From assembly GCF_000420825.1 (NCBI RefSeq), contig NZ_ATVR01000008.1, positions 62,001 to 126,000 of the forward strand: a stretch of 64,000 bases of DNA, in the 5' to 3' direction. Numbering within the stretch: position 1 is the stretch's first letter; each line of letters starts with the position of its first letter. This document shows positions 60,033-64,000 of this stretch, piece after piece. The notes under the pieces are model-generated. The model did not search any database and had not been told where the DNA came from. It was given only the letters and a program-made list of their open reading frames with translations. A program made the translations under genes and the position numbers. This DNA comes from Butyrivibrio sp. AE2015 (GTDB taxonomy: Bacteria; Bacillota; Clostridia; Lachnospirales; Lachnospiraceae).

Positions 60033-61688
60033 ATGAGTAGATTTGTCGACAATGGACCTATGTTAAATGCCTACCCTGATAGTATGGGTGGAACTCTGGG
60101 TGATATTGTATCAGTACTGTCAAAAGATGCATTCAAGGATGTTTTTCAGTCATTTTACATTCTTCCAAGTATCTTTAACACAGATTTGGACAGAGGTTTT
60201 TCTGTAATAGATTATGGTATCAATGAGCAGCTTGGCAGCAAAGAGGATATCGAGGCACTTAAGGCTCTTGATATCAATCTGAAGCTTGATTTCATTCTTA
60301 ATCATGCTTCAGTTCTTTCTCCACAGTTCCAGGATCTTGTAAAAAATGGTGAGAAGTCAAAATATGCTGACTTCTTTATTAACTGGAACAAATTCTGGGA
60401 TGGATACGGCGAGATGACTGATGAAGGCTATATCCAGCCTGACCAGAAATATATAAAGGACATGTTTTTCAGAAAACCCGGACTTCCTATTCTTATGGTC
60501 CGCATGCCTGATGGCAAGGACGTGCCTTACTGGAATACATTCTATCAGGAAGTGCAGTACAAGAGACCTGATGCGCAGGATCTTATGGAAAAGATGGATA
60601 TTCAGTATCTTTCTGCACAGAGATTAGCGGGTAGAGTCTGCGAGGGACTTGATGAGGGAAAGAAGCCTGCTGAAATTGATTTCACAGGTTTTGAAAAATA
60701 TAAAGATGCAGTTGTTGATTATTTAGAGTCTGGAAGACGATATCTCGGACAGATGGATCTTAATATTAAATCTGATCTTGTTTGGGAACATTACAGAAAT
60801 ACACTTAAGAGTCTTTCAGGTTATGGCGCAAGTATCGTTCGTCTTGATGCCTTTGCCTATGCACCTAAAGAACCAGGCAAAAAGAACTTCTTAAATGAGC
60901 CTGATACCTGGGATGTGCTTGAAAAAGTTAAGAAGCTTGCCGATGAGTTTAAGGTATCTCTTTTACCTGAAATTCATGCAAGTTACAGTGAAAAAATCTA
61001 TGAAGTTGTGGCTGATAAGGGCTATATGACTTATGATTTCTTCCTTCCGGGACTTCTCATTTACGCAATCGAATCAAAGTCCGGAGAGCTTTTGAAGAAG
61101 TGGGCAGATGAGATTCAGGAAAAGAAGATACGCGTAGTTAATATGCTTGGATGTCATGATGGTATTCCGCTTCTTGATCTTAAGGGAATCCTTCCTGAAG
61201 AGGATATCCAGAATATGATCGATACAATTGTTGGTCGCGGGGGATTTGTTAAGGATCTTCATGGTGCCAAGAATATGTATTATCAGGTAAACGCTACATA
61301 TTACAGTGCTCTTGGCGATGATGACAAGAAGATGCTCTTTGCAAGAGCAATTCAGATGTTCATGCCCGGTAAGCCACAGGTTTGGTATCTTGATCTGTTT
61401 GCAGGAAAGAATGACCATGAAGCTGTAAAGCGCGCAGGAGCAGGCGGACACAAGGAGATCAACAGAACAAATCTCACTATTGACCAGATTGAAGCTGCTA
61501 TGAAAAAAGATGTTGTTAAGAAGCAGCTTGAATTGTTGAGATTCCGTAACACATGTCCGGCATTTGGATTTGATGCCAAGCTTGATGTTACAGTAGATGG
61601 AACTGTCATGAAGTTTGTCTGGGAAAACAACGGCCACAAAGCTACATTAGAAGCTGATTTTGATGATTACAGTTACAAGATTTCTTAA
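60033..61688 (+). CDS. GH13_18 glycoside phosphorylase (sucrose / sucrose-6-phosphate phosphorylase-like)
   Basis: 551 residues. The N-terminus 'NGPMLNAYPDSMGGTLGDI' is characteristic of subfamily GH13_18. Catalytic residues: Asp in 'SIVRLDAFAYAPKEPGKKN' near residue 272, Glu in 'SLLPEIHASYSEKIYEV' near 312 and Asp in 'NMLGCHDGIPLLDL' near 372. These enzymes cleave sucrose, sucrose-6F-phosphate or glucosylglycerate with phosphate, giving alpha-glucose-1-phosphate. The 'DAFAYAPKEPG' context is closer to the phosphate-sugar acting branch than to simple sucrose phosphorylase, in my judgement. A strong terminator follows. Confidence 0.85.
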   Translation: MSRFVDNGPMLNAYPDSMGGTLGDIVSVLSKDAFKDVFQSFYILPSIFNTDLDRGFSVIDYGINEQLGSKEDIEALKALDINLKLDFILNHASVLSPQFQDLVKNGEKSKYADFFINWNKFWDGYGEMTDEGYIQPDQKYIKDMFFRKPGLPILMVRMPDGKDVPYWNTFYQEVQYKRPDAQDLMEKMDIQYLSAQRLAGRVCEGLDEGKKPAEIDFTGFEKYKDAVVDYLESGRRYLGQMDLNIKSDLVWEHYRNTLKSLSGYGASIVRLDAFAYAPKEPGKKNFLNEPDTWDVLEKVKKLADEFKVSLLPEIHASYSEKIYEVVADKGYMTYDFFLPGLLIYAIESKSGELLKKWADEIQEKKIRVVNMLGCHDGIPLLDLKGILPEEDIQNMIDTIVGRGGFVKDLHGAKNMYYQVNATYYSALGDDDKKMLFARAIQMFMPGKPQVWYLDLFAGKNDHEAVKRAGAGGHKEINRTNLTIDQIEAAMKKDVVKKQLELLRFRNTCPAFGFDAKLDVTVDGTVMKFVWENNGHKATLEADFDDYSYKIS

Positions 61689-61701
61689 AGAAAACTAAGA
61701 A

Positions 61702-61744
61702 AGTCCACCCATGAAATTTTTGTTTCAAGGGTGGACTATTTTTA
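61702..61744 (+). terminator. Terminator after the GH13_18 gene
   Basis: AGTCCACCC (61702-61710) pairs with GGGTGGACT (61729-61737); the inner ATGAAA..TTTCA pairing continues the stem, followed by ATTTTT. Confidence 0.9.
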
Positions 61745-61835
61745 TGAAATAAATAATCGCAACGTCAGTAATCATGCCGAATTCGACATTTTTGGAGATT
61801 TCACAAAATGTTCAAAAATTCGATCACAAAAACTA

Positions 61836-61864
61836 TTTACAGATTAAAAATATTATGATATTTT
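61836..61864 (+). promoter_or_regulatory. Promoter of the structured leader / Rpn-like gene
   Basis: TTTACA (61836-61841), a 17-base spacer and TATTTT (61859-61864). Transcription would start near 61871 and leave a leader of about 290 bases. Confidence 0.55.
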
Positions 61865-61883
61865 ATCAATCGTTGTTTAAATC

Positions 61884-62124
61884 TGCTCAACTAGAGCAAG
61901 GATGATACAGACAGTGTGTCCAATTCACTGTAAGTACTATGTAATTCTGGTGTCATCCAAATCTCATAAACGCTAAATATATAAGAGAGTCTTTTTTGTT
62001 GTTTGTAATTTTCTGTGCTGGCGAACATGGAAATTTTACGCTCTATCTTGCCCTTTTTCAAGATGACTTTCCGTTACAAGTTTTCTGTGGAACTTGGCAT
62101 GTCTTTTCTCTTATATATTTAGCG
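61884..62124 (+). ncRNA. Candidate structured leader RNA with multi-way junction
   Basis: Pairings in order: TGCTC/GAGCA (61884-61898); a 9-bp stem GGATGATAC (61900-61908) with GTGTCATCC (61950-61958), enclosing ACAGTG/CACTGT (61911-61931); and a perfect 18-bp stem CGCTAAATATATAAGAGA (61971-61988) with 62107-62124. This last stem encloses three hairpins at 62005-62039, 62045-62064 (ATCTTG/CAAGAT) and 62077-62096 (CAAGTT/AACTTG). That makes a four-way junction. No known Rfam family is recognised by eye; a MITE with terminal inverted repeats is the alternative. Confidence 0.5.
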
Positions 62125-62158
62125 GATTATCAAAAATAATGGAGGTTTTATTTTATAG

Positions 62159-63043
62159 ATGAGTTTGGACAGAGAGAAAGAGAGGCTTGATTGGCATTCA
62201 GGCTTTGATGGTGGTTTAAACCTTAGCTTCATGAAATATAAAAAATATATCTATATTGAGAGAGAACATCCCCTATCAAAAGAACCTTTGATGATAGATT
62301 TTTTGGTCATAAAGAAAAATGATGATATAGTAATAAACAATTCTGTGGGCTTGGATTTTTTAAAGTATAATATAATTGAATATAAGAATCCTAATGATGA
62401 ATTAAATATTGATGTTTTATATAAGGTTATAGCTTATGCTTGCCTATATAAAAGCTTTGGAGATAGTGTAGATGCAATAAAAGATAGTGAGATTACTATT
62501 TCTATATTCAGGACGAGAAAACCAAAAAAATTGCTCAAGCAATTAGTATTAAGAGGAAAAACTGTAGAACAGAAAAGACCCGGAGTTTACAATATTATCG
62601 GGATAATAGATATTCCTCTAAATATTATTGTAATGGGAGAATTAAAAGATAAGGAACTGCTTGCATTCAACATAATGACTCATAATGCGGATGAAGAAAT
62701 GGTTAAGCTTTTCCTTAAAGAAACCAGGAAATTTAAAGAAAGTGGAGCAAGGCATTATGCTGACGCAGTGCTTCAAATAAGTGCTGGCGCAAATAAGGAA
62801 CTGTATAGGAAATTGAGAGGTGAACAAGATATGTGCGAAGCGTTAAAAGAAATAATGGCCGATGATCTTAGAGAAGCCGAAGCGAAAGGTGAAGAAAAAG
62901 GTATAGAGAAAGGCATAGACCTTCGCGATAAAGAAAAAATTACTGAGATGCTCAATATGGGCAGAAGCCCAAAAGAAATAGCTGATTTTTGCAAATACCC
63001 GATGGAACAAGTTATGCAAGTTTATAACGATTTGAAAAAGTAA
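62159..63043 (+). CDS. Rpn / PD-(D/E)XK nuclease-family transposase-like protein
   Basis: 294 residues. A PD-(D/E)XK-type core: 'EPLMIDFLVIKKNDDIVINN' (Asp ~47), then 'YNIIEYKNPNDELNIDVLYK' (E-Y-K ~77-79), and helix 'VIAYACLYKSFGD'. The C-terminus 'AEAKGEEKGIEKGIDLRDKE' followed by a short HTH-like 'MLNMGRSPKEIADFCKYP' is typical of Rpn-like proteins of Firmicutes. Rpn proteins are DNA endonucleases that promote recA-independent recombination. GGAGG lies an unusually long 13 bases before ATG 62159, and a stop directly precedes that ATG. It is headed by a structured leader and followed by an interrupted aldo/keto reductase gene. Confidence 0.7.
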   Translation: MSLDREKERLDWHSGFDGGLNLSFMKYKKYIYIEREHPLSKEPLMIDFLVIKKNDDIVINNSVGLDFLKYNIIEYKNPNDELNIDVLYKVIAYACLYKSFGDSVDAIKDSEITISIFRTRKPKKLLKQLVLRGKTVEQKRPGVYNIIGIIDIPLNIIVMGELKDKELLAFNIMTHNADEEMVKLFLKETRKFKESGARHYADAVLQISAGANKELYRKLRGEQDMCEALKEIMADDLREAEAKGEEKGIEKGIDLRDKEKITEMLNMGRSPKEIADFCKYPMEQVMQVYNDLKK

Positions 63044-63064
63044 TGAATATTTGGAGGATAGGCG

Positions 63065-63199
63065 ATGAAAAAACTAGGCTTTGGGACAATGCGACTGCCA
63101 CTTTTTAATTCTGACGATCCGACATCGATTGACATTGAACAGACCAAAAAAATGGTAGATTTGTTTATGGATAGACTAACTATTAAATGTCAAGACTGA
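63065..63199 (+). pseudogene. Aldo/keto reductase, N-terminal fragment cut by IS110
   Basis: 44 codons after a good ribosome site (GGAGG): 'MKKLGFGTMRLPLFNSDD', then 'IDIEQTKKMVDLFMD'. This is the standard start of the AKR family found in Clostridia, where a 'GFTYFDTAY' segment should follow. Instead the frame runs into foreign sequence and stops at 63197. The break falls around 63170-63180, where the insertion element begins. No downstream remainder is inside the window. Confidence 0.75.
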
Positions 63200-63252
63200 A
63201 ACGAAGCAATTCGTTCAGATAGATCAGTACCTTGAAAACTGCATGACAAACA

Positions 63253-63272
63253 GAGCATCCGATAGGGTGCTC
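63253..63272. repeat. Hairpin in the IS110 non-coding end
   Basis: GAGCATCC (63253-63260) pairs with GGGTGCTC (63265-63272) around GATA, including one G-T pair. It lies between the transposase stop and the element edge. Confidence 0.6.
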
Positions 63273-63294
63273 AGACAGAAGAGGAAAGAAATAC

Positions 63295-64000
63295 TTATGC
63301 TGCGCGATAAGGTTCGCCGGTTAATTGCATCCGGTAGATCACCCGGACAAGTTTCTTACATGCATGTGAAATAGCTACATAGTAATGCTTGCCTTCCGCT
63401 CTCTTTTTGGCAAGATAAGAATTAAACACTGGATCCCAGTTGCAGACGTATATCGTGGCATTGAACAGGGCGTATCGCAGATAACGAGATCCACGTTTCT
63501 CCATATGGGCATAGGATGAAGTCAGTTGTCCGGATTGATATGTTGAAGGAGAAAGTCCTGCGTAGGCAAGGATCTGGTCTGCATTCTCAAAGCGTGAGAA
63601 ATCGCCTATCTCTGCAAGGATCATGGCACCCATTCGATTTTTGATTCCAGGGATAGTGGTGATTGGAGATTCCAGCGTATTCATGATGGAATTGATTGCT
63701 GTTTCAATCTCGTTGATTTCTTCGCTAAGGACTTCAATGAGATGGATCGTGTGCTTTAGTTCCATGGATTTTGCGGACATTACAGTTCCTACGGAAGAAA
63801 TAGCGGCATCTCGGATGAGGATTGCTTCATCGCGTCCGTAATGCCCCTTGGATGCTTCACAGAGAAGATGTTTTAGGCGAGTAAGATGTGCTGCGGCAAC
63901 AAATGAAGCTCCGGGGAACTCGGAGAGCAAAGCGTAAACGGTAGCCGTATGAAGTGTGGGGACCAGTTTTTCCAATTCTGGGAATAGAATGCTGACAAGC
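63295..64000 (-). CDS. IS110-family transposase, C-terminal part (5' end beyond window)
   Basis: The frame is open to the window edge; about 235 residues are visible. 'SPITTIPGIKNRMGAMILAE' and 'FENADQILAYAGLSPSTYQS' are the helix-hairpin-helix/serine motif region of Transposase_20, the C-terminal domain of IS110 transposases. The following 'KRGSRYLRYALFNATIYVCN' and 'HYYVAISHACKKLVRVIYRM' are also typical. The N-terminal DEDD (RuvC-like) domain lies outside. IS110 recombinases are guided by a bridge RNA encoded in an element end, which probably also lies outside. Confidence 0.92.
   Translation of the reverse strand, partial: LVSILFPELEKLVPTLHTATVYALLSEFPGASFVAAAHLTRLKHLLCEASKGHYGRDEAILIRDAAISSVGTVMSAKSMELKHTIHLIEVLSEEINEIETAINSIMNTLESPITTIPGIKNRMGAMILAEIGDFSRFENADQILAYAGLSPSTYQSGQLTSSYAHMEKRGSRYLRYALFNATIYVCNWDPVFNSYLAKKRAEGKHYYVAISHACKKLVRVIYRMQLTGEPYRAA

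Follow-up and report, generated by a model that had tools for sequence, protein, structure and literature searches.

Locus and leader

The window, a 64,000-nt stretch of Butyrivibrio sp. AE2015 DNA, carries near its end a gene for an Rpn-type nuclease and, in front of it, a long leader (61836-62158). Promoter, leader and gene lie on the same strand:

61836..61864, + strand: promoter, with TTTACA (61836), a 17-nt spacer and TATTTT (61864), and TG before the -10 box
61871..62124, + strand: structured RNA, presumably transcribed, its 5' end placed from the -10 box and its conserved part ending with P4
61885..61897, + strand: hairpin P1 (GCTC/GAGC; arms 61885-61888/61894-61897), from covariation
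61900..61958, + strand: P2 (61900-61908 with 61950-61958), enclosing P3, from covariation
61911-61916 with 61926-61931, + strand: P3, inside P2, from covariation
61959..61970, + strand: linker joining P2 to P4, predicted to be single-stranded
61971..61988, + strand: 5' arm of P4, from the inverted repeat and covariation
61989..62106, + strand: interior of P4, with three predicted hairpins in the window and variable sequence and length across the family
62107..62124, + strand: 3' arm of P4, followed by GATTATC (many copies have an ATTGTC-like tail)
62141..62145, + strand: GGAGG, which by its sequence probably serves the nuclease gene as ribosome-binding site, 68% unpaired in the predicted ensemble
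62159..63043, + strand: Rpn-type PD-(D/E)XK nuclease gene, 294 aa

The nuclease had no match in a Pfam search and scored 15 bits against TIGR01784, below the cut-off of 52.1. A sequence-only reading of this DNA had named it an Rpn-type nuclease, and phmmer bore this out with matches to two Rpn-type proteins confirmed by Pfam (E 7e-12 and 8e-12), with D47, E74, and K76 invariant in 24 relatives. Best Foldseek matches of the nuclease model included 2vld and 5gke, which we take to be PD-(D/E)XK nucleases, with probabilities of 0.98-0.99, yet E-values of 0.03-0.06 and none at 0.001. A PDB sequence search with the nuclease profile returned nothing useful, and PADLOC found no match among seven proteins. 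Because the catalytic core and homology were found but the curated profile cut-off was missed, we use the label Rpn-type rather than treating the protein as a certified Rpn. The part of PMC10327210 available describes Rpn proteins as phage-defence toxins restrained by a protein antitoxin made inside the gene, so RNA control of Rpn would be an extra layer.

Beyond the nuclease gene, in the region 63060-63999, an aldo/keto-reductase-like frame that is intact in locus L065 stops early near 63190 in the window and is followed by an IS110-type transposase frame on the minus strand (63295-63999). Because of this transposase we considered an IS110 bridge RNA, and rejected it: the RNA ends about 1.2 kb from the transposase, which lies beyond rpn, and relatives of the RNA occur in many other contexts.

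The leader was predicted to fold to -76.9 kcal/mol, compared with -60.4 +/- 4.8 in 100 dinucleotide shuffles (z -3.4; 0/100 as low), and the stem domain at 61965-62130 reached z -4.8 (0/200 shuffles as low). The elaborate fold proposed from the sequence alone was thus confirmed, as was its perfect 18-bp closing stem (61971-61988/62107-62124), whose arms are separated by 118 nt. The reverse strand folds too (z -5.4), so folding energy is silent on strand, and the strand of the RNA was set by promoter position, conserved loops, and gene order. The region 61600-62300 contained no direct repeats. In an Rfam 15 search of the window, only a tRNA elsewhere reached the gathering threshold and sub-threshold matches were chance-like. 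The same search of 13 further loci found nothing but a TPP riboswitch, a match that confirms the search to be effective. A known Rfam family, riboswitch or T-box was therefore rejected as an identity for the leader for want of a match, in agreement with the sequence-only reading that it was not T-box-like.

An RNA family found in Butyrivibrio

A DNA search of the host genome returned one diverged relative of the leader with no adjacent Rpn gene, and a search of 61 genomes returned two more, both in a single genome of the same genus. We built a covariance model (R1) of the 5' half from four sequences, found further copies with it, and retrained on 26 (R2) and then 47 sequences (R3), ending at 47 matches. 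These covariance searches placed 47 copies, including that of the window, in 25/79 Butyrivibrio genomes at 1 to 6 copies per positive genome, with three diverged copies in the host genome. E-values from R3 are not independent because R3 was trained on the same matches; R2 had found 21/47 of them outside its own training set, the weakest at E 0.011.

The family appeared narrowly distributed. Among 397 genomes from 334 genera of the Lachnospiraceae, only two had matches, both Butyrivibrio; divergent copies might be missed in this survey because no more than nine candidates in each genome entered scoring. An exact pattern of the CAGCG-type core only, searched in one genome per species across 84,980 species, matched nine times, in seven stretches that all belong to Butyrivibrio; Butyrivibrio proteoclasticus P18 is among the carriers of a copy. 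In a separate search, the 12-base pattern TCYAATTCRCTG alone gave about as many matches as its reversed control. The core pattern had no match in viral contigs and the window copy none in phage and plasmid records. So far, then, the sequence searches have found the RNA family only in Butyrivibrio. We found no description of the RNA in the literature, covered at title and abstract level and mostly outside subscription journals, and the available part of PMC8040213 mentions neither Butyrivibrio nor Rpn. We consider the window leader a copy of an RNA family for which we found no description. The general kind is known, and the family is a variant of it that stands at the head of toxin genes as well.

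Several copies shared a context. One recurred in several genomes downstream of a zinc-ribbon-type gene, at L092, L094, L095, L096, L099, L100, and also L087, and less clearly in L102. This zinc-ribbon-adjacent locus is possibly the ancestral locus of the RNA. L099 and L100 had a long insert in the 5' domain. At L070:5763-6147 (minus strand), an RNA copy was followed directly by a TPP riboswitch and a transporter-like gene.

Covariation and consensus structure

P1-P3. We aligned 38/47 matches with MAFFT, omitting nine: four because they were near-identical, two for a long insert, and one each for being short, truncated at a contig end, or weak. Double-sided changes occurred at 17/19 pairs, and the covariation score of 0.530 exceeded those of the shuffles (0.253 +/- 0.013) and of the slid controls (0.192 or lower). 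The two early stems of the sequence-only reading thus correspond to P1 and to P2 enclosing P3. P2 had double-sided changes at 9/9 pairs with 91.5% of cells paired, P3 at 5/6 pairs with 92.5%, and P1, the weakest helix, at 3/4 pairs with 73.8% of cells paired on the 38-row alignment. The linker that follows had a family consensus of about AUCUUUCAAAC, and the window copy reads AAAUCUCAUAAA.

P4. By free complementarity, 35/47 matches exceeded the 95% level of the 141 trials on shuffled sequence and 24 exceeded their maximum, with shuffles that kept base content alone and searched a slightly narrower range. Of the matches new to R2, 19 were followed by 150 nt or more of sequence, and 10 of these showed P4, which R2 itself does not include. 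For counting, we took the P4 arms of 34/35 matches (one lacked a 3' anchor), 30 of them distinct, and positioned them by motifs on either side; we placed 11 of the 5' anchors manually, and each 3' anchor was the motif nearest the stem found. Double-sided changes occurred at 16/18 pairs, with a covariation score of 0.426 that exceeded those of the shuffles (0.257 +/- 0.017) and of the slid controls (0.222 or lower). The percentage of P4 cells paired is raised because rows were chosen for having P4. The arms of P4 varied among copies with complementarity kept, and among matches over the 95% level the loops spanned about 68 to 224 nt with varying interior sequence. In window and L082, P4 differed by two compensatory double changes.

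A consensus fold of the window, L064, L065, and L082 kept P4 and dropped the three inner hairpins, so the four-way junction seen in the sequence-only reading is predicted in the window but true of that sequence only. That reading had held that compensatory changes in the 18-bp stem and the three hairpins would support an RNA; they were found in P4, and the hairpins were not conserved. Neither a lack of covariation nor identical copies scattered without linkage to Rpn genes, the outcomes that it had set against an RNA, was found. Compensatory changes in excess of both the shuffled and the slid controls mark the family as a structured RNA under selection, on an unusual plan in which a conserved closing stem surrounds a freely varying interior.

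Promoter and operator

As a bare consensus match the window promoter was not above chance (8 found, 6.8 expected). The promoter called plausible from the sequence alone gained support across the family, with TTTACA at most 160 nt upstream in 39/47 copies compared with 32/277 control ORFs. TTAAGA stood exactly 14 nt before TTTAC in 30/47 copies, and in 24/47 a second TTAAGA lay 22 bp further upstream within an 11-bp repeat block. Control ORFs had neither operator arrangement (0/277), though one had the double site without the box. The half-site was missing at its fixed place in the window copy, L064, L065, L082, and 13 others.

A search with the promoter sequence (at most one mismatch) recovered 35 sites in 23/79 genomes and none with the reversed pattern; all of the 35 but G012:C30 were read. 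The RNA lay within 260 nt of 25/35 sites. Another 4/35 (L209, L212, L214, and L219) led to a diverged RNA of like plan. This subfamily, reached by promoter only, had a P1-like hairpin, a CCAAACACC linker (CCAAAC-type or CCAGAC), and a closing stem of at least 12 bp around about 160-190 nt. One site preceded a BrnT toxin gene with a short leader and P1-P3-like stems, and L211 preceded a gene that was Rpn-like by eye, without a Pfam match and with a P1-like hairpin only. L226 preceded a window-family Rpn gene with another leader, and L216 and L228 preceded lipoprotein-like genes with no such RNA.

Repeats of 11 bp suit OmpR/PhoB-type regulators. A LytTR/ComE-type operator, guessed from the 22-bp spacing, was rejected when the aligned operators showed 11-bp repeats, which OmpR/PhoB fits better. 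In the host genome a double site lay directly before an OmpR-type regulator gene, which makes it a candidate regulator; of the other sites there, some were unrelated to RNA or toxin genes and one was within a coding frame. The operator sequence suggests that about half of the copies would be under OmpR/PhoB-type two-component control.

The double TTAAGA with 22-bp spacing also occurred before Rpn-type genes that lack the RNA (upstream regions of L105-L162), in 7/28 window-family leaders, some of these 28 being RNA-bearing loci, and in 6/29 PF12784 leaders, with 0 expected in shuffles. Two places in the host genome, L177 on contig C58 and L173 on contig C44, had near-identical leaders with a double operator and truncated Rpn-like frames behind.

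Genes behind the RNA

We took the nearest same-strand ORF of at least 80 aa within 600 nt downstream, which existed for 33/47 copies and was Rpn-type in 20 of those. Rpn-type was defined as Pfam-confirmed (eight proteins) or joined to those by iterated phmmer (31 ORFs). Counted as distinct ORFs, with related and tandem copies kept separate, 19/32 directly downstream were Rpn-type compared with 12/349 other ORFs at the same loci (Fisher p 5.7e-16). The Rpn-type genes belonged to several subfamilies (PF12784, PF04754, and the window family).

The remaining 27/47 copies had no Rpn-type gene directly behind them, and some had no toxin gene at all. One copy preceded a Gp49 gene (L069). L071 had one copy before HicA with HicB and a second before Gp49 and an HTH gene, L097 had a copy before a HicA-like ORF without a Pfam match and then HicB, and L077 had one before a 46-aa fragment without a match and then an HTH gene. 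These HicAB and Gp49/HTH linkages are few cases, counted with no background rate. In L075, L088, L089 (three copies), and L093, the 5' domain ran into the gene and the long stem was not found.

A weak 5'-domain copy at L076:4836-6524 (minus strand; R2 E 0.011) ran directly into a comM-type gene, behind which lay one of dprA type, and the long stem was not found before comM. A link to competence was dropped, since this single weak copy was the only one before comM/dprA.

Could the sequence act as DNA, either as a MITE, as the sequence-only reading had allowed, or as an attC-like hairpin site for toxin cassettes? The long inverted repeat and the variety of genes behind it would suit such an element, as would the tandem RNA-gene units at L071, L073, and L089 and the tandem RNAs at L066 and L067. 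Conservation and covariation extend outside the inverted repeat, however, and the promoter is conserved at a fixed distance. The MITE was judged unlikely because the host genome, rather than near-identical multiple copies, holds just three diverged ones, with arms that differ yet stay complementary. As the window copy matched no phage or plasmid record and the core pattern no viral contig, we regard a DNA element as very improbable.

The reverse linkage was weak. Among the matches listed (30 each from two lists, some of them fragments), 6/60 Rpn-type loci carried the RNA, although both window-family genes in the host genome and the three intact ones in genome G012 did. Many Rpn-type genes without the RNA (L134-L162 and others) had by eye another short leader, with a hairpin such as GCATCATTTCTGATGC followed by a small hairpin like GGCATTTCGCC, TTCC, and a ribosome site.

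In type III toxin-antitoxin systems of the ToxIN class, a structured RNA lies directly upstream of the toxin gene. An antitoxin of this kind would bind and restrain the toxin, and orphan RNAs would protect against toxins encoded elsewhere. The Butyrivibrio RNA resembles that class in lying directly before a toxin gene, here of several kinds, and it survives loss of the toxin gene as shown below. It differs in that the window leader lacks tandem short repeats, the toxin families are not those of ToxIN, and most Rpn-type loci among the matches listed lack the RNA (54/60). The toxin families behind it are also unrelated to each other, and several such loci contain HicB or HTH genes. HicA, Gp49, and BrnT families are usually paired with protein antitoxins, which counts against an RNA antitoxin. 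For Rpn proteins too, an internal protein antitoxin is reported in the available part of PMC10327210, and we judge the RNA antitoxin improbable. The RNA partner of the nuclease, another proposal of the sequence-only reading, was rejected as an obligate one given the 6/60 loci among the matches listed and the persistence of the RNA beyond Rpn.

Copies that outlive Rpn

The RNA was intact in L064 and L082 despite decay of Rpn. In L064 the rpn remnants were an inner 60-nt piece (95% identity) and then a 162-nt match (92%), of which only the last 31 nt of rpn formed part and the rest was sequence beyond rpn. In L082 the remnant was 48 nt long (79%, E 6e-6). L067 had two RNA copies and no adjacent Rpn gene, while the corresponding locus L066 has one. 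A terminator-like hairpin lay 3' of the RNA on the same strand in L067; in L083 the hairpin behind the RNA scored as a terminator on the opposite strand only, and a T run follows it on the RNA strand. In the window the stretch from the RNA to rpn contains no terminator-like site, so the copy there may be a leader only.

These loci bear on whether the RNA is purely a cis-acting leader, a riboregulator or attenuator of its own toxin mRNA only, with gene-less copies as relics. The Rpn-type genes directly behind 20/47 copies favor this, as do the 5' domains that run into genes in four loci and the window leader without a terminator before rpn. Relics are harder to reconcile with L064 and L082, which keep the RNA after Rpn decay, L082 with compensatory changes in P4, and with L066 and L067, which keep their RNAs whether Rpn is present or absent. 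The ribosome site, moreover, is not occluded. We find a pure cis-leader doubtful. The interpretation in the sequence-only reading was borne out in part, as a structured RNA with compensatory changes, Rpn linkage, and no Rfam match, for which the Rpn leader is only one form.

Mechanism

Linker pairing. Pairing between the linker and ribosome sites was no better than chance (n = 19; mean rank 0.41 when compared with other sites, 0.29 when compared with shuffled linkers), and an anti-Shine-Dalgarno linker gained no support.

Ribosome-site occlusion. The site was more open than in controls, with a mean unpaired probability of 0.52 (n = 18) compared with 0.37 (125 controls; p 0.03). The two simplest mechanisms thus failed, because linker pairing was at chance and the ribosome site was not hidden.

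The reading that we favor, though tentatively, is a multicopy regulatory RNA, partly under two-component control, that also serves as the 5' module of toxin genes. It draws on what the analysis established: the family and its structure, the gene linkage, the persistence without Rpn, and the operator motif. The family plan has a 5' domain in which P1 is followed by P2 with P3 inside, then a single-stranded linker, and finally the long closing stem P4 around a variable interior. Copies without a toxin gene would be RNA genes of their own, and other copies the 5' untranslated module of Rpn-type nuclease, HicAB, Gp49/HTH, and BrnT genes, some of them reduced to a 5' domain that runs straight into the gene. 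A post-transcriptional regulator seems most likely, as a small RNA in trans where it stands alone and in cis at the head of a toxin mRNA. We infer transcription and the regulator, as well as the regulatory role in cis and trans and the direction of its effect on toxin output. Toxin-less copies, other toxin genes, and the operator were out of sight of the sequence-only reading.

Comparison with known systems

The nearest working analogues are probably the CiaR-dependent csRNAs of streptococci and LhrC of Listeria, to judge by the parts of PMC3091779 and PMC4132741 available. The csRNAs (51-202 nt), found by promoter and intergenic position, are encoded by several related genes in each genome, all controlled by a single response regulator of a two-component system (PMC3091779). 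Several copies per genome, as in csRNAs and LhrC, were also found here. Differences are that the same available text describes no long closing stem domain and no toxin genes behind the csRNAs, that the Butyrivibrio RNA is known from sequence only, and that its operator is in about half of its copies. LhrC is likewise a multicopy sRNA dependent on a two-component system; in the available part of PMC4132741 it acts via CU-rich sites on target mRNAs and is not a toxin leader, whereas the pyrimidine-rich Butyrivibrio linker failed the pairing test. Rpn phage-defence proteins share the type of gene behind the RNA, but the available text of PMC10327210 describes an in-gene protein antitoxin and does not mention an RNA head.

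Implications

A bolder proposal, on balance unlikely, is that the RNA is a genus-wide exchangeable head, produced largely under two-component control and at once a free regulator and an interchangeable 5' module of unrelated toxin genes (Rpn, HicAB, Gp49/HTH, BrnT). Free copies would coordinate or restrain the whole set of toxins in trans by way of the RNA domains in common, and new toxins would join the regulon by acquiring the head. Toxin and defence genes have to be kept silent until the cell requires them, and how cells coordinate many unrelated toxin systems is an open question. A structured RNA common to unrelated toxin genes and occurring as separate RNA genes too, with about half of its copies carrying one operator, would offer a directly testable layer of joint control, in an RNA family for which we found no description in this genus of rumen bacteria.
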